A stretch of 64,000 nt of DNA from assembly GCF_037975245.1 (NCBI RefSeq), contig NC_092571.1, positions 18,746,917 through 18,810,916 of the forward strand, in the 5' to 3' direction. The stretch comes from Apostichopus japonicus (lineage: Eukaryota; Echinodermata; Holothuroidea; Aspidochirotida; Stichopodidae). Below the pieces are notes generated by a model that had not been told where the DNA came from, ran no database searches, and worked only from the letters and a program-made list of their open reading frames with translations. This document shows, one piece after another, positions 8,685-63,953 of this stretch (position 1 is its first letter; each line of letters starts with the position of its first letter). Position numbers and translations under genes: made by a program.

Positions 8685-10656
8685 TGCGATGAAGATCTCA
8701 CTCTCACTATTGTGCGCGTAAAAATGTTTAATAAACAAACAAAAAATTAAACAAGATACCTACAATCCTGTGATAGCAGGTGTTTAATATCTAGTAGCCA
8801 GCTACCAGGCAAGTAAGGACTGGAAACTAACTGTCGTAAGTTTTTGTTGAAGAATAAAATTACCAGGGTTCATAAAGTTTCTTTGAATTGAAGAGGAATA
8901 AAAATAAACAGCCAAGAAAAGTGTATCAACCGCGATCTATACGACGTGAGAAATTGTCAATATTCCTTTCCTCCTTTGATACAAAATTCTCCACTTTCGT
9001 TAACAAAAATCGATCAGACGAGGTAGGAATTTCTTTTCTTTGACGGGGAATCGAGGGGCGACTTCGTCGGTCAATTCTTTTTCACTTCTTTCCAATTGAA
9101 CATAAAAAGCACAGTAAGAGTTGGTTTACGTACAGACACCGTGCAATGAACCTTTCGATATTAAAAATAACGGACTGCACAATAGTATCGATGGCAAGTA
9201 TTCTTCGGCTCCAAGTGCCTGATGAGGGTCACGTGAGATTTTTCTTATCCCGATTGAGTTAATTATGATGGATAAATGCCAACTGGAGAACCACTATTAA
9301 GTTCCATAAGAAAAGAAAATATTTGTCAAAAGCTGTTGATATCCACTATTTGTGGGCTTCAGTTACGCAGGTTAGTTTGCCTATCAGTTGGCGAGCTGTG
9401 CGTGAACTCCAAAACTTAGGACAAGAAAAAAATACACATATTCTCTCATGAAGAATAGTTCAAAAGTACAACAGCTGCATGGCGACAAAGGAATGAACTT
9501 GCGTGGCGACGTGTTATGATGCAATGGATTGAGAGTTCTTTGAGGAGAGGAGCTTCTAAGCTGGCGAACTATATCAGGCATTCCCCACTGAATTAGCAAC
9601 AGTGATCTGCTAGATCGTGTACAATCAGTATTTATAGCGTCGGGCCAAGCTCAGGTCAAAACAACCAACGGGGAGGAGTGGCTTAGCGCTACTGGATGGG
9701 CCGTCTCGCCACTGACAAGAATTACTTAACCGTGAAATGGGCAAATTGGATTAATTACCAAATACAAGCAGGACCACTTAAGGTGCTAAATACCTAAAAT
9801 GATAGTGGTGTGAAGTAACGAGCCAGACGAGACATGCTGACAGCTCACAAAATGAAACATTTTACGTATCATAGGATAAACATAGCAGTATGTATACCTG
9901 AATGCAACATACCACATAACTATGTGTGATAATAAAGCCTAGGCTGGTATCAATGGTGAACCTTTTATAGAATACGAGTTTACTCTTAATTAGCTGTGAA
10001 AACGGGAGTGGGAGGGAGGGGTATAACCAGAAAAAAAATCATTAAACAGGCAGGCAGAAGAAAAGTATGTCAAACCCCTGGGAGTTATCGGGGTAAGTTA
10101 AAGCCAAATTATAGCTTCCATAATTCACAGAAACGATAGACGTCAGCCAGACACGTAATGGTTTGGCCCGTTAGACAGAATAATACTGCAGAACGAATAG
10201 CAATAACGAGTGATTCGGAAGGATTTCCTGAAATGTTTTAAGCATTTAAAGACCACCGAGGACCGGTACACCGCTCCTTAACTTCACCATCCTTTCAGGA
10301 AACTATTGATCGTATTAGCTTATGAAATTTACATCACAAAAATTACCTCCCGTTCGTTCTAAGTTAAAATTTATTATAAGTATAACAACATGGTTAATGA
10401 CCTAATCTCGGTTTATTGTAATTTCAATCATAATACCTGCGGTTAAAACAGCTACAAATATATATTCTACAACAAAAATAAAAATGATGTATAAAAATGC
10501 CAAATATCATCTAAAAGTTAGCATTATTATTTCGATAATGCATTGTTATGCAAGTCAAACAGGGAATCACGTTATTACATGTTAAAAGAATCGGTCTATC
10601 AAACATTGAGGCGAAGAATCACTTGTGGCACGAATAAACAAGCACATCCAGTGGTT
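8685..10656. other. Non-coding, no gene recognised
   Basis: Presumed upstream region of the minus-strand signal-peptide exon at 8519-8684, plus anonymous AT-rich sequence. The minus-strand frame at 9384-9599 contains a short hydrophobic stretch (MREYVYFFLVLSFGVHAQ) but stops after three more residues with no donor. Confidence 0.5.
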
Positions 10657-12046
10657 TCAGTTTAGTCTATGCTATATATTATACTCTGTCATTAATGATG
10701 AGGCTATTACATCAGTTTAGTCTATGCTATATTTAATACTCATTCACTAATGATGAGGCTATATTACTTTAGTTTAGTCTATGCTATATTTAATACTCAT
10801 TCACTAATGATGAGGCTATTACATCAGTTTAGTCTATGCTATATTTAATACTCATTCACTAATGATGAGGCTATATTACTTTAGTTTAGTCTATGCTATA
10901 TTTAATACTCATTCACTAATGATGAGGCTATATTACTTCAGTTTAGTCTATGCTATATTTAATACTTCATTAATGATGAGGCTATTACTTCAGTATAGTC
11001 TATGCTATATTTAATACTCTGTCATTAATGATGAGGCTATTACATCAGTTTAGTCTATGCTATATTTAATACTCATTCACTAATGATGATGCTATATTAC
11101 ATCAGTTTACTCTATGCTATATTTAATACTCATTCACTAATGATGAGGCTATATTACTTAAGTTTAGTCTATGCTATATTTAATACTCATTCACTAATGA
11201 TGAGGCTATATTACTTTAGTTTAGTCTATGTTATATTTAAGACTCATTTACTAATGATGAGGCTATTACTTCAGTTTAGTGTATGCTATATTTAAGACTC
11301 ATTCACTAATGATGGGGCTATTACTTCAGTTTACTCTATGTTATATTTAAGACTCCTTCCTTCATGATAAAGCTATTACTTCAGTTTACTCTATGCTATA
11401 TTTAATACTCATTCACTAATGATGAGGCTATTACTTCAGTTTACTCTATGTTATATTTAATAGGCCTACTCATTCGTTCATGATGAGGCTATTACTTCAG
11501 TTTACTCTATGCTATATTTAATACTCATTCACTAATGATGAGGCTATTACTTCAGTTTACTCTATGTTATATTTAATACTCATTCACTAATGAGGCTATT
11601 ACTTCAGTTTACTCTATGTTATATTTAATACTCATTCGTTCATGATGAGGCTATTACTTCAGTTTACTCTATGCTATATTTAATACTCTGTCACTAATGA
11701 TGAGGCTATTACTTCAGTTTAATCTATGCTATATTTAATACTCTGTCATTAATGATGAGGTTATTACTTCAGTTTACTCTATGTTATATTTAAGACTCAT
11801 TCCTTCATGATGAGGCTATATTACTTAAGTTTAGTCTATGCTATATTAAATACTCATTCACTAATGATGAGGCTATTACTTCAGTTTACTCTATGTTATA
11901 TTTAATACTCATTCGTTCATGATGAGGCTATTACTTCAGTTTACTCTATGCTATATTTAATACTCTGTCATTAATGATGAGGCTATTACTTCAGTTTACT
12001 CTATGTTATATTTAATACTCATTCGTTCATGATGAGGCTATAACTT
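10657..12046. repeat. Minisatellite, about 56-bp unit, about 25 copies
   Basis: Head-to-tail copies of a unit containing CAGTTTAGTCTATGCTATAT, TTAATACTCATTCACTAATG and ATGAGGCTATTACTT. Variants (TTTAGTCT/TTTACTCT, GCTATAT/GTTATAT, ATTCACTAA/TGTCATTAA/ATTCGTTCA) recur in blocks, showing that several units have been amplified together. The plus-strand frame at 11083-11295 is an artefact of the repeat. Confidence 0.95.
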
Positions 12047-21955: not shown

Positions 21956-22934
21956 TTGTTCGATATTGAATACCATTAGCCAGAACCTGGAATTCCCATT
22001 TACTTTGATGATGGGGTACATGAGCTTTAAATTCAGTAGATGATAAATGAAACCGTTCATCCCGCCCTAGTAAAATGTTACATTATACATCGTAAGAAAG
22101 CCGGTCATTCTCTTAAGGTTGGAATAATTGTTTTAGTCTTCGCATTCATTTGTGTCGGATCATATCCGGAGTCTGGTCGGGCTCACCTAACGGGTCCTCC
22201 CGTCCGAGTTATGTATTGTTTTTAACATACAGCAAAAAGAACCTAACGTTCAGGTCAGCTATTTATTCATACCTCAATCAAATAGCAGATAATGTATCAT
22301 GAGAAATGCAATGGGATTGCAAGGGTGTACGACAACATTCGATTGTTAATTACGACTATGATTGGTATAGATCCATATTTGTAATAATGGTGTGTATAGC
22401 GCCAGTTGTAATATTTGTCAGAGCATATGATACCATTATGGCTACATTAAGAAAGCAATTTTGGGACACTTTTACAATGTTTTGGTAGATATTAGTAAAT
22501 TATTTTATACTTGTAGTTTACAATATCTGTACTCATGTGTCCAAGCGCCCGAACCGTTATCGCCTTATGTGCTGGTCAATAACTCTCTACACTGGCTGTT
22601 ACTTTTACGCTAGAAGCCCGGCAGCCAGAACGCATGCTCTAAAACGGGATTTTACAACCGTTTGTGAAAAACGGTGCGACATTTTTTAATGGGTTTATTG
22701 AAACCTTTAATTCACCTGGTTATTGTCTGTTAAATAACAACTCCTCTAATAGTTTACTTAAAACTTTTCTTCTTTTATCAGGTCGAATTTTTCTCCACTT
22801 GTATACATTATTGAATTAATCCGTAATATCACAATTGCCTTAATATTGGCGAACAAATATCTTAGGAAAGTTATCCAAGAAAGAAAATGGGAACGAAAAA
22901 CCAAACAGCCGACCAACTGATCGTTTTCTACCGC

Positions 22935-23083
22935 AGTCCCCAGTCCCCAGCCGTATGATCCCTAGTCCCCACACCCAAGGTCCTCAGTCCCCAGTCCCCG
23001 GTCCCTAGCCGTAATCCCCAGTCCCCACGGCCCCAATCCCCAGGCCCCAGCGCCAGTCCCCAGTCCCGGGTCCCCAGGCATAG
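22935..23083. repeat. CCCCAGT-type GC-rich minisatellite
   Basis: Irregular runs of CCCCAGTCCCCAG with CCCTAG, CCCACGG and CCCGG variants, GC-rich in an AT-rich neighbourhood. It appears to be a local expansion of the CCCCAGTCCCC segment that occurs once in the sister unit (near 23226-23235). The G-rich minus strand could form G-quadruplexes. Confidence 0.85.
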
Positions 23084-23297
23084 AGACGGACTGTATGATC
23101 ATCCCCATCCGGTGCGTCTCACGGTCCCCTATAAGGGGAACATAATACTTTTTTTAAGGAAAAGTCGCCCAGGAAAGAACCTGGCCACGAAAACCAAACT
23201 ACCAAACGACTGATCCGCTCTCAACCCCAGTCCCCTTGCATCGGGACTGTGACTGTGTGATCATCGTCGGGTTTGCATCACCATTCCCCTCGAAAGG

Positions 23298-23365
23298 GAA
23301 CAGATACTACACATGATCTTAGCTTAAAGGCCGGAACATAATACTTCACTTGATCTTAGCCAAAA
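23298..23365 (-). pseudogene. Two U2 snRNA 5'-end-like sequences in tandem
   Basis: On the minus strand, 23332-23298 matches the conserved start of U2 snRNA (GGCCTTTTGGCTAAGATCAA followed by GTGTAGTATCTGTTC) at 32 of 35 bases by my alignment from memory. At 23365-23334, TTTTGGCTAAGATCAAGTG matches exactly before diverging. This part of U2 covers the end of stem I and the region leading toward the branch-point-pairing segment. The match stops after CTGTTC: the rest of U2, including the branch-point-recognition loop and Sm site, is absent, so these are not functional U2 genes. Confidence 0.75.
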
Positions 23366-26883: not shown

Positions 26884-27641
26884 ACAGTCTCCAGAGCCTG
26901 TCCCGTGTATCCACGGGTGAGTCTGTCCCGGACATCCACGGGTCTTTCTGTCCCGTGTATATCCCCCGGTCAGTCTGCCCGTATAACCACTGGTCAGCCT
27001 ATTCCGTACATCCACCGTTCAGCCTATTACGTACATACATAGGTCTATTCCGTACATACACCGGTCAGTCTGCCCAGTACATCCACCGGTCTGTCCCGTA
27101 CTTCCAGTGGTCAGTTTGTCCCGTACTTCCAGTCGTCAGTCTATTCCGTACATCCATCGGTCAGTCTACTCAGTAGATCCATCGGTCTGTCCAGTACATC
27201 TACCGGTCAGTCTACTCAGTACATCTACCGGTCAGTCTGTCCAGTACATCCAGTGGTCAGTCTGTCCAGTACATTTACCGGTCAGTCTATACCGTACATC
27301 CATCGGTCAGTCTACTCAGTACATCCATCGGTCAGTCTATTCCGTACATCTACCGGTCAGTCTACTCAGTACATCCATCGGTCTGTCCAGTACATCCACC
27401 AGTCAGTCTACTCAGTACATCTACCGGCTAGTCTATACCGTACATCCATCGGTCAGTCTACTCAGTACATCCATCGGTCAGTCTATTCCGTACATCTACC
27501 GGTCAGTCTACTCAGTACATCCATCGGTCTGTCCAGTACATCCACCGGTCAGTCTACTCAGTACATTTACCGGTCAGTTTGTCCAGTACGTCCACTGGTC
27601 AGTCTGTCCATTACATCCACCGTTCATTCTGTCCCGTACGT
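26884..27641. repeat. Minisatellite, alternating 25- and 21-bp units
   Basis: About 30 units of the type TACATCCATCGGTCAGTCTA plus CTCAG, mixed with a shorter form TACATCCATCGGTCTGTCCA plus G, which lacks four bases. The units become more regular toward the 3' side. Overlapping plus-strand frames of 196 and 157 codons (27107-27726) arise from the repeat and are not genes. Confidence 0.93.
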
Positions 27642-27857
27642 CCATGAGTATAGTATACACGCTCGCGAATTGCATTATGAACGCCATCGTGTGTTGACAC
27701 GAGGGCCCACTATGCTGACCATGTAAACAAATACATAGTCTACGGTATATTTAGAATTAATGTTTAATGAACAGGCATACGAGGCAGTAACGAACTGTAT
27801 CGTAAATTCAAGATATAGGCAGGTGAACCAACGAATAGATTCCCCCGGGAGAACACT

Positions 27858-29014
27858 GTAGGCTACATCGTGTGTAGGAGCTAATACTCATGACCTTTCA
27901 GGAATTAACATGTAGGCTACATCATGTATAGGAGCTCATACTCATGACCTTTCAGGAATTAACATGTAGGCTACATCGTGTGTAGGAGCTAATACTCATG
28001 ACCTTTCAGGAATTAACATGTAGACTACATTATGTGTAGGAGCTCATACACATGACCTTTCAGGAATTAACACGTAGCTACATCGTGTGTAGGAGCTCAT
28101 ACTCATGAGTCATGACCTTTCAGGAATGAACATGTAGGCTACATCGTGTGTAGGAGCTAACACTCATGACCTTTCAGGAATTAACATGTAGGCTACATCG
28201 TGTGTAGGAGCTCATACACATGACCTTTCAGGAATGAACATGTAGGCTACATCGTGTGTAGGAGCTAACACTCATGACCTTTCAGGAATGAACATGTAGG
28301 CTACATCGTGTGTAGGAGCTCATACACATGACCTTTCAGGAATTAACATGTAGGCTACATCGTGTGTAGGAGCTAATACTCATGACCTTTCAGGAATTAA
28401 CATGTAGGCTACATCGTGTGTAGGAGCTAATACTCATGACCTTTCAGGAATTAACATGTAGGCTACATCGTGTGTAGGAACTAATACTCATGACCTTTCA
28501 GGAATTAACATGTAGGCTACATCGTATGTAGGAGCTAATACTCATGACCTTTCAGGAATTAACATGTAGGCTACATCGTGTGTAGGAGCTCATACTCATG
28601 ACCTTTCAGGAATTAACATGTAGGCTACATCGTGTGTAGGAACTCATACACATGACCTTTCAGGAATTAACATGTAGGCTACATCGTGTGTAGGAGCTCA
28701 TACTCATGACCTTTCAGGAATTAACATGTAGGCTACATCGTGTGTAGCAGCTCATACTCATGACCTTTCAGGAATTAACATGTAGGCTACATCGTGTGTA
28801 GCAGCTAATACTCATGGCCTTTCAGGAATTAACATGTAGGCTACATCATGTGTAGGAGCTCATACTCATTACCTTTAGTCATGAATTAACACGTAGCTAC
28901 ATCGTGTGTAGGGGCTCATACACATGACCTTTCAGGAATTAACATGTAGGCTACATCGTGTGTAGGAGCTAATACTCATGACCTTTCAGGAATTAACATG
29001 TAGGCTACATCATG
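27858..29014. repeat. Minisatellite, 54-bp unit, about 21 copies
   Basis: Highly regular head-to-tail repeat. One unit holds GGCTACATCGTGTGTAGGAG, CTAATACTCATGACCTTTCA and GGAATTAACATGTA. Variants are few (CTCATACAC, AGCAGC, ATCATG), which indicates recent amplification or homogenisation. It lies about 200 bp from the preceding minisatellite but is unrelated in sequence. Confidence 0.96.
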
Positions 29015-29783
29015 TCACGGTAAGTCTGTAATCTCTACAATTGCCAGAAGTACTCCTGAGTCAATCTACGACCATATTACCGTATCGCTGTGAAATCTCT
29101 TCAAATCTTAAATTAAATTTAACTGTTTGAAATGGCCTTCGGCTAATTGATCTTAAGTTCTCTTGATGTAAACCACATTATATTCTTCGCAGTCGGTTCT
29201 TCTTTTGTTTTTAGTAATTATGAAAGCTCTCAGAAGGATCATTTTGTTTGAATTTCTATAAAACACGTGCAGGCGGCTGAAACCATAGTTTGATAAATCT
29301 AAATCCTCGCTGAATAATTAAAATACTGGCGTACATACTGACATAACCTGGTTATAGAACGATTGATCTGTAATATTCTGGAACCAAAGTCTCACAGTTA
29401 TGTACTACAACAAGCATCTTACAATGTAGTCTTACAAAGTAGACAAGGTAACAAAACCCTGACAATATTAGCTGGCCTTCTAGTTAACAACATTCTCACA
29501 ATGTTAGTACTGTAACAACATTCTCACAACGTAAGCAATTAATGAAACGGCATCTCACAATATCAGCAATGTAATGCTGAAGATTAAATATCATATTTGT
29601 TTAGGAAATATCACATTGGAGCACGCGACCACAAGACAAGAATGAACACTGCCCCCATCCCCAGCAACCCATATCGACTGTGTGTAACCATCTGATCATG
29701 ATGATAGTATCATAATGTTGATATTCCCCGTAAGAGGCATGGAGCCCGATCTGATCTGATCATATATATCGTCGTACTTACAC

Positions 29784-49769: not shown

Positions 49770-49958
49770 CATCAACTCTGTGAAAGATCCATCTTTTGTC
49801 TACTGTATGATTTGTTCAAGATTATTTCAAACCTGTTGTACAATACTGTATATTGAGTCCCATTCAAGAACTCAACTGATGTGACCAAAATATATCCACC
49901 AAAAGAAATGATAAATCAGTACTGGCATCAAGATAACAAGTATGAAATTAAAAATAGT

Positions 49959-50299
49959 ACCAAGTATGAGATTCACCAACATACCAAGTATGAGATTCAC
50001 CAACATACCAAGTATGAGATTCACCAACATACCAAGTATGAGATTCACCAACATACCAAGTATGAGATTCACCAACATACCAAGTATAAGAATCACCAAT
50101 GTACCAAGTAAGAGATTCACCAACATGCCAAGTATGATATTCATCAAAGTACCAAGTATGAGATTCACCAACATACCAAGTATGAGATTCACCAACATAC
50201 CAAGTATGAGATTCATCAAAGTACCAAGTATGAGATTCACCAACATACCAAGTATAAGATCCACAAACATACCAAGTATGAGATTCACCAACATACCAA
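49959..50299. repeat. 24-bp tandem repeat, about 14 copies
   Basis: Units ACCAAGTATGAGATTCACCA plus ACAT, with variants GTACC, ATCCACAA and TTCATCAA. The period is a multiple of three, so both strands stay open (LVNLILGM octapeptides on minus; MRFTNIPS on plus). These frames of 145 and 120 codons lack family similarity, and I treat them as repeat artefacts. Confidence 0.94.
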
Positions 50300-62800: not shown

Positions 62801-63953
62801 TTGCAGTAACCACCTTACATGGATGCTGACTAACTAAAACAAATCTAGTATACAATATAAACAAGAAATAATCCCAAGTAGTATCAGGTACCCTGGTAGT
62901 ATCAAGTAGTATCAGGTAATATCAGGTACCCTGGTAGTCAAGTAGTATCAGGTAATATCAGGTACCCTGGTAGCATCAAGTAGTATTAGGTAGTAGCAGG
63001 TACCCTGGTAGCCAAGTAGTATCAGGTAATATCAGGTACCCTGGTAGTCAAGTAGTATCAGGTAGTATCAGGTACCCTGGTAGTATCAAGTAGTATTAGG
63101 TAGTAGCAGGTACCCTGGTAGTCAAGTAGTATCAGGTAATATCAGGTACCCTGGTAGTCAAGTAGTATCAGGTAATATCAGGTACCCTGGTAGTCAAGTA
63201 GTATCAGGTACTCTGGTAGTATCAAGTAGTATTAGGTAATATCAGGTACCCTGGTAGTCAAGTAGTATCAGGTAGTATCAACTAGTATCAGGTACCCTGG
63301 TAGTCAAGTAGTAACAGGTACCCTGGTAGTATCAAGTAGTATTAGGTAGTATCAGGTACCCTGGTAGTATTAGGTAGTAGCAGGTACCCTGGTAGTCAAG
63401 TAGTATCAGGTAATATCAGGTACCCTGGTAGTCAAGTAGTATCAGGTAATATCAGGTACCCTGGTAGTCAAGTAGTATCAGGTACTCTGGTAGTATCAAG
63501 TAGTATTAGGTAATATCAGGTACCCTGGTAGTCAAGTAGTATCAGGTAATATCAGGTACCCTGGTAGTCAAGTAGTATCAGGTACTCTGGTAGTCAAGTA
63601 GTATCAGGTACCCTTGTAGTCAAGTAGTATCAAGTAGTTTCAGGTACCCTGTTAGGTCAAGTAGTATCAGGTACTTATCAGGCATTTAGGTAGCTATCTT
63701 CAAGCAAGGCTTTTGATTTAGAAACAGATTCTTTTTAAGTGGAGAAAGAAAGCTTAAGGGCTAATGCAGGAGAAGAAATTGTGACTTTAAACTCACAGGT
63801 CGCTTTCCCTGAGTGGAGTAGTTGTCAATCTGTGGTTCAGTATTAAAGAGATTAATCAGGAGACTGGCAGAATGTTTGGCTTTTGCAAAGTCAGGCAAAA
63901 AGGCAGAAGACTGACCCAAAGACACACCAGCAAAGGCAACACCAAACACCACC
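59879..63953 (-). CDS. ABCB1-like: ABCB full transporter (P-glycoprotein/MDR type), C-terminal part
   Basis: The last five coding exons of an ATP-driven exporter of the multidrug-resistance/bile-salt-pump group; the 5' part lies beyond the window. Exons (minus): 63797-63953, 62428-62625, 61493-61696, 60623-60769, 59879-60085, about 303 residues, GT-AG with matching phases. The first encodes the end of the last membrane helix and linker ([14 protein letters not shown], a pattern typical of the second half). Then come Walker [10 protein letters not shown], the Q-loop VSQEPILF, signature LSGGQKQR, Walker [13 protein letters not shown] and the H-loop [14 protein letters not shown]. The second nucleotide-binding domain thus has all its catalytic motifs and looks functional. 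It ends GGQRRAAES. Introns contain two minisatellites. ABCB1, ABCB4 and ABCB11 cannot be told apart from this part; invertebrate copies are often co-orthologous to all three. Confidence 0.94.
60807..61083. repeat. 77-bp tandem repeat, about 3.5 copies, in ABCB intron
   Basis: Units contain ACACAAATTATCGGGGGCCA, CTGTGGCTCAGTAATAAGAG and CCTTTCCATAGAAAAACATT. The segment GTGGCTCAGTAATAAGAGC is loosely like a tRNA A box, but no B box follows. It lies just upstream (on the minus strand) of the exon carrying the ABC signature. Confidence 0.9.
62875..63674. repeat. Complex minisatellite in ABCB intron
   Basis: About 800 bp built from short modules: CAAGTAGTATCAGGTA, ATATCAGGTA and CCCTGGTAGT. They combine into longer units of about 35-36 bp that are themselves repeated in blocks, a nested (higher-order) structure. 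It lies in the intron just 3' of the exon at 63797-63953, ending about 120 bp from that exon's donor. Confidence 0.95.

Follow-up and report, generated by a model that had tools for sequence, protein, structure and literature searches.

Two nested U2-headed SINE copies in the window

The window, i.e., the whole stretch of 64,000 nucleotides of Apostichopus japonicus DNA that was analysed (contig NC_092571.1), carries on its minus strand, at positions 22861–23365, two copies of one interspersed SINE family with a head derived from U2 snRNA. The head of the old copy, itself derived from U2, was the landing site of a young one, so that the two are nested and not in tandem, and their bodies are variants of different age within this single family. 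The young copy (23151–23332, minus strand) is 5′-truncated, starts at U2 nt 11, and matches the family query with 97.8% identity across 185 aligned positions. Its head (U2 nt 11–45; 23298–23332, minus strand) was placed via the Rfam U2 alignment and the host U2 sequence, agrees with canonical U2 at 32 of 35 nt (by eye), and is followed by a non-U2 body with an A-tract (23151–23297, minus strand). The limits of the young copy derive from a direct repeat, since the 14-bp sequence GGAACATAATACTT lies on either side of it, at 23137–23150 and 23333–23346, and is its target-site duplication (of up to 14 bp). The first duplicate (23137–23150) reads AAGTATTATGTTCC on the minus strand, in which AAGTA could partly be the 3′ end of the element; the second (23333–23346, minus strand) doubles as the end of the old U2-like head, where it reads GTATTATGTTC vs. 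GTATCTGTTC in U2 (cf. the heads of the old subfamily below).

The U2-like head of the old copy (23334–23365, minus strand) starts with a retained stretch (23347–23365, minus strand) in which TTTTGGCTAAGATCAAGTG exactly matches U2 nt 15–33. It is joined via a GTATTATGTTCCCC head–body junction to a diverged body (22861–23136, minus strand; 3′ end approximate), which blastn aligned to the family in pieces, i.e., at 22867–22941 (76%) and 23070–23142 (71%, E-value of 0.01), and which contains a GGGGACTGGGGAC-type minisatellite expansion with internal repeats (22945–23077, minus strand; bounds approximate). Minisatellite arrays also lie at 10656–12046, 26898–27644, 27852–29015, 49929–50299, and 62878–63682 of the window.

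The Rfam U2 model scored 28.8 bits at this locus (E-value of 7e-4 for the 651 bases searched; gathering score 46), a scan of the whole window at the Rfam gathering thresholds gave no match, and a tRNA search of the window found none. A preliminary description of this DNA had pointed out both minus-strand matches to the 5′ end of U2 (32/35 and the 19-base exact run), and these hold against canonical U2. It had also described the copies as a tandem array, which the GGAACATAATACTT direct repeat overturns by showing one SINE nested in the head of another.

The family is interspersed across the genome

The genome searched comprised 671.6 Mb in 35 contigs, a size well below that of crocodilian genomes. 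A first blast search yielded at least 53 matches on 20 of the 35 contigs (with the best 40 of 2280 candidates scored), while a 35-mer spanning the head–body junction was encountered at 887 places with at most two mismatches (reversed-pattern control, 0) and a body 37-mer at 1439 places with at most three (control, 0). Viral contigs contained the junction 0 times. The proposal of a transposable family with a recurrent head–body junction, which had been made to depend on further copies with that same junction in the genome, is borne out by these 887 places, many more than chance would give. A full copy consists of a U2 nt 1–45 head, a body of ~145 bp, an A-tract, and GTA, amounting to ~190 bp of non-coding DNA, and the hallmarks of a SINE (i.e., short, non-coding, interspersed, present in many copies, and common in structure) are all present.

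The copies sampled were best blast hits and exact-pattern matches, a non-random choice that favours good matches. Four partial matches (L072, L079, L081, and L091) were dropped from the 40 exact-junction loci, to which L080 contributes no row, the resulting table of 61 copies omits the arrays L039–L042 and the U2 loci L009–L038 except L011, and leaving out the piece L064 (query 142 on) gave a set of 60. A target duplication scoring at least 7 was found in 38 of the 61 copies vs. 1.9% of the swapped-flank controls, leaving 23/61 without one. Copies start at U2 nt 1 in 19/61 cases and at nt 1–8 in 46/61, and no U2 promoter was found upstream of the 19 that start at nt 1 (best match 11/25 bases). 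The A-tract is followed by GTA in 62 of 79 copies, with 17 tails lacking GTA. A defined 3′ tail, target duplications, and agreement of the heads with the genome's own U2 genes (45/45, see below), all of which the preliminary description had named as things to look for, are present.

When searched with the Rfam U2 model, four other copies scored 44.6–50.4 bits, and two of these (50.4 and 47.2) exceed the cut-off of 46. The continuous U2 match stops at nt 45 in all five Rfam alignments, with the rest of the model gapped. In Rfam at E-values up to 10, the body yielded only U2 and weak miRNA matches. A known RNA as the identity of the body was considered and rejected on these results; at E-values up to 5, the other matches were miRNA models and one snoRNA model, below cut-off and outside the SINE.

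Some copies recur in larger arrangements. Eight exact junction copies lie on one strand of C5:11042412–11065986 at a spacing of 2.7–4.1 kb, perhaps in a larger repeat unit carrying the SINE. Locus L039 (C13:20058500–20059800) has six bodies in a row at a U2-like target, with a step of ~160 bp and one partial head at its opening, and the old copies L102, L111, L118, and L120 sit in another repeat with a common CGTGCATATACGTGATGAGCGG-like upstream motif.

Host U2 genes and the LINEs and SINE bodies within them

The U2 model RF00004 located the host genes in a 645-bp tandem array on C16, with four more on C15 (the best 46 of 40,968 first-look candidates were scored, and 46/46 were over the cut-off). 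The SINE head equals host U2 nt 1–45 at 45/45 positions in all 30 fetched U2 loci (L009–L038). This includes a T at nt 30 (GATCATGTG), found in 30/30 of these loci and in the SINE head, at a position that is A in canonical U2 and lies within a very conserved region. Searching for the final 8 promoter bases joined to nt 1–45 picked out 68 array units. Of these, 63 continue with U2 CTTTT (some being broken thereafter by LINEs at nt 49–50); in the other five, nt 45 is followed by the SINE (three units) or by a LINE (two units).

Within the array (C16:31.01–31.17 Mb; L012–L038, L059–L061, and L143), at least three kinds of LINE are inserted in U2 genes. Among them are LINEs that encode a CCHC ORF1 and an ORF2 with APE and RT domains; Exo_endo_phos and RVT_1 were found in L059 and L060, both of which have long open ORFs, with 36% identity between the two ORF2s across 1139 aligned positions. 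The 3′ flank of the LINEs, TCTGTTC, is U2 from nt 39, i.e., the same 3′ position as that of the SINE, and the presence of GTA ahead of this flank is ambiguous in two of the three LINE types. Their 5′ joints in U2 are at nt 30, 31, 45, 49, and 50, and in the insertions L061 and L143 the joint at nt 45 coincides with the head–body joint of the SINE. Being of APE type with a 3′ flank at U2 nt 39, these LINEs have the features of Keno-type elements, and the SINE and the APE/RT LINEs use the same U2 site, a likeness of domains and target. The body gave no convincing match to the LINEs L059, L060, L061, and L012 (best blastn E-value of 0.085). These LINEs were rejected as the origin of either body or tail, an A-rich end being all that the 3′ sequences have in common, and it is the shared site that points to a partner among them.

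Four U2 genes of the C16 array hold the SINE body, namely those at C16:31132509, C16:31059492, C16:31133952 (L142), and ~C16:31021.8 kb (L138). In three of them, the U2 upstream region and nt 1–45 are followed by the body, AAAAAGTA, and then U2 from nt 39; L138 has two consecutive bodies and a deletion that removed the joint along with some of the first of them. Counted over the bases available for each locus, the upstream sequence is identical to that of a neighbouring U2 unit at 450/450 (L038), 449/450 (L018), 28/28 (L142), and 118/118 (L138) positions. The four embedded units differ in body variant, their 3′ joints all coincide exactly with the LINE site, and two of them show a step of 798 = 645 + 153 bases. 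It could also be that the embedded copies arose as products of the family instead of acting as its sources. While right about a SINE with a U2 head and wrong about its local tandem layout, the preliminary description missed these occupied U2 genes because they are located outside the window.

Subfamilies and their age

A 36-mer of the embedded type was found at 173 places with at most two mismatches, 62 of them exact, including two in the array. Twenty loci of this type were fetched, 19 of which are dispersed. Three of these 19 (L130, L132, and L133) are identical to an embedded copy at 189/189 positions, the other dispersed copies show 0–2 mismatches over 161–188 matched bases, and an A-tract with GTA ends all 19. 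Exact target duplications of 8–18 bp flank 15/19 (a raw count, with one in an AT repeat). The exceptions are L129 and L131 with 6-base repeats, L134 with none, and L123, in which the 8 matching bases belong to the head and so do not count. The first base of a duplication follows G, GT, or GTA (in L136, it precedes G), which suggests an RNA with AAAAAGUA at its end that is primed on a target TA.

The dominant older type, CCCTTTCGAGGGG, occurs at 887 places, and no source for it was found in the C16 array of the assembly. Its median divergence from its own consensus is 3.2% (n = 35, range 0–8.3%, selected by exact match) vs. near-identity among embedded-type copies, which makes the type found in U2 genes the youngest sampled. 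The subfamily with the old GTATTATGTTCCCC junction counts 64 places with at most two mismatches (i.e., the window and 63 others), and a U2-like head was readable by eye in 19/20 fetched copies. The GATCAAGTG of the old head in the window was considered as a fossil of ancestral U2 and rejected: 18 of the 19 readable old-subfamily heads have T at that base and L117 alone has A (by eye), so that the A in the window is probably private.

Target preference and dimeric copies

Target bases were tested on the 60 GTA-bearing copies among the 77 that remained after omission of L123 and the window, a set that includes L090 and L092, which share a flank. The bases following GTA favour the TCT of U2 (T in 40/60, p-value of 2e-8; C in 24/60, p-value of 3e-4; T in 28/60, p-value of 0.009), as does position 8 its U2 T (30/60, p-value of 0.002), all p-values being single-position and uncorrected with ten positions tested. 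At positions 7 (G in 6/60) and 9–13, the U2 base was not favoured in these 60 copies. GTATCT occurs at 7 insertion sites vs. 1.2 expected. The insertion sites retain a weak U2-like preference.

Genome-wide, a SINE tail falls exactly on GTATCTGTTCCC at 12 exact places in 11 loci (control, 0). Ten of these loci were read, nine of them dispersed, and six of the nine are body-GTATCTGTTC-body dimers within a single target duplication (L137, L148, L149, L150, and L151 by script, and L146 with its 13-base repeat by direct look-up). Not among the single-duplication dimers are L129 with a 6-bp repeat, L147 with none, and L123, which runs past the fetched stretch. L146 and L148 are 5′-truncated inside the first body, so that in each a single dimeric RNA was copied. 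In L123 and L149, the 5′ body resembles the young type more closely and the 3′ body the older one; L146 agrees with this order on ~30 nt, L148 leans the same way, and no older-first dimer was present in the ten loci, the other six being same-type pairs. The young-first order is what one would predict if a U2 gene already carrying a body were hit again upstream of it, and L138 is such a doubly occupied U2 gene, mirrored by the dispersed dimers. Insertion of one SINE into the head of another could account for some dimers.

Transcription and proposed cycle

U1 and U2 genes have external promoters, so that an snRNA head alone should not be transcribed, which makes SINEs with such heads a puzzle. 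A scan of the SINE sequence for A and B boxes scored no better than shuffles, although an A-box match with one mismatch is present at nt 18, and the element contains runs of T4, T4, and T5. Judged from sequence, an internal Pol III promoter is unlikely. No good match to an Sm site was seen by eye in the body when it was inspected for an Sm site and 3′ hairpin, and the predicted fold of the SINE RNA is better than that of shuffles (z −3.6), a value uninformative on function.

Taken with the occupied U2 genes, these data make it probable that the family is a non-autonomous U2-headed SINE with the U2 genes it invaded as its sources. The occupied genes would be transcribed from the U2 promoter, with a Keno-like LINE as partner and 5′ joining by homology. 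In such a cycle, the U2 promoter would transcribe U2 nt 1–45 together with the body, and a Keno-type U2-targeting LINE would reverse-transcribe the SINE RNA at nicked GTA|TCT-like sites. Insertion in a real U2 gene would put the product directly behind the U2 promoter and rebuild GTATCTGTTC, thereby making a new source that could be hit again and give rise to tandem bodies. Insertion elsewhere would leave a promoterless, dead copy whose U2 head could still act as a target, of which the nesting in the window would be an instance. As the U2 array evolves in concert, old sources would be lost and new ones fixed, yielding successive subfamilies. We lean, with some reserve, towards a promoterless SINE in a closed cycle through U2 genes: site-specific insertion would place it behind a Pol II snRNA promoter every time, the host 5′ end would be retained to serve as its head, to mimic the target, and probably to act as a 5′ homology arm, the rebuilt target would let insertions stack, and dead headed copies across the genome would become targets. 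Against U2 genes as sources stand the copies without a duplication (23/61) or without GTA (17/79) and the CCCTTTCGAGGGG type, which has no C16 source.

It seems unlikely that the head was gained once, when a reverse transcriptase switched templates to U2 snRNA (whole or in fragments), with the family spreading afterwards and the U2-gene insertions following later via shared target recognition and head homology. R2 elements with 5′ U12 snRNA or tRNA sequence are reported (PMC3414825), and head homology would also yield a seamless 5′ joint in U2 genes; two LINE insertions, however, have their 5′ joint at nt 45 as well, a coincidence expected from an insertion origin but not from a jump, even if this point is tempered by the other LINE insertions that join at nt 30, 31, 49, or 50. 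Moreover, a jump accounts for the origin only and not for present sources. An ordinary Pol III SINE with an internal promoter, whose copies embedded in U2 genes are passive insertions, would suit both the 887 dispersed junctions vs. four occupied genes and the near-match A box at nt 18. It is nevertheless quite unlikely, given the shuffle-level A/B box scores, the three internal runs of at least four T, the 46/61 copies starting at U2 nt 1–8 (including 19 at nt 1, without an upstream U2 promoter), and the dimeric copies, whose layout matches that of a U2 gene hit twice.

Chimeric joins of array units with SINE copies might be suspected, since an array as long and repetitive as that of U2 is difficult to assemble, but the four embedded units with their different body variants and their 3′ joints exactly on the LINE site, and the step of 798 bases seen in two of them, render such an artefact very improbable. 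We give hardly any credence to U2 processed pseudogenes multiplied with unrelated flanks by segmental duplication: some copies do lie in spaced repeats (C5:11042412–11065986) or in other repeats (L111/L118), yet flanks differ, separate target duplications accompany 38/61 and 15/19 sampled copies and exclude this origin for the family as a whole, and the same body and 3′ end recur on many contigs.

Relation to known elements and significance

SINEs with U1 or U2 snRNA heads, termed SINEU, were reportedly described from crocodilians by Kojima in 2015, their mobilisation being ascribed to a Tx1-group LINE via shared targets. The present family resembles SINEU as so described in joining a U2-derived 5′ head (the snRNA head that defines the class) to an unrelated body; it differs in having a host U2 array that holds the body at the head–body joint beside U2-targeting LINEs. 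U2 retropseudogenes comprise U2 sequence with target duplications and have no body and no family with a fixed joint; the present copies share the former two features and differ in having a body and a fixed joint. In literature on snRNA-headed SINEs and on SINEs in U2 genes, titles and opening parts of abstracts disclosed no U2-occupied SINE source, which is not a claim on all that is in print.

Keno and Utopia are U2 gene-targeting LINEs with a 3′ flank from nt 39, Keno being of APE type (PMC4640811). Tandem copies within U2 genes are at times seen for one Utopia family, and others show only a weak U2-like preference outside U2 (PMC4640811). The SINE uses the same U2 site, and the array LINEs are APE-type like Keno; Keno and Utopia are autonomous LINEs, in contrast to this non-coding element of ~190 bp (PMC4640811). 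The nearest mechanism met in the literature searched is that of the Drosophila R2 SIDEs and R2/R1 hybrid SIDEs, which are non-autonomous, co-transcribed with their target gene, and moved by a target-specific LINE (PMC3414825). The SINE is likewise a non-autonomous element in a multicopy RNA gene, with putative co-transcription, whereas R2 SIDEs are cut from the co-transcript by a 5′ ribozyme, insert in rDNA, and derive from LINE ends (PMC3414825). Unlike R2 SIDEs, the SINE retains host gene sequence as its head, has copies genome-wide, and has a body without LINE-end origin as judged against L059, L060, L061, and L012.

The occupied U2 genes offer a concrete answer, testable in one species, to the puzzle of how SINEs with snRNA heads are transcribed. 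By this route, a promoterless element would gain its promoter via its insertion site, which would account for both its 5′ end and its head–body joint, and the turnover of SINE subfamilies would be tied to the concerted evolution of the host RNA array.
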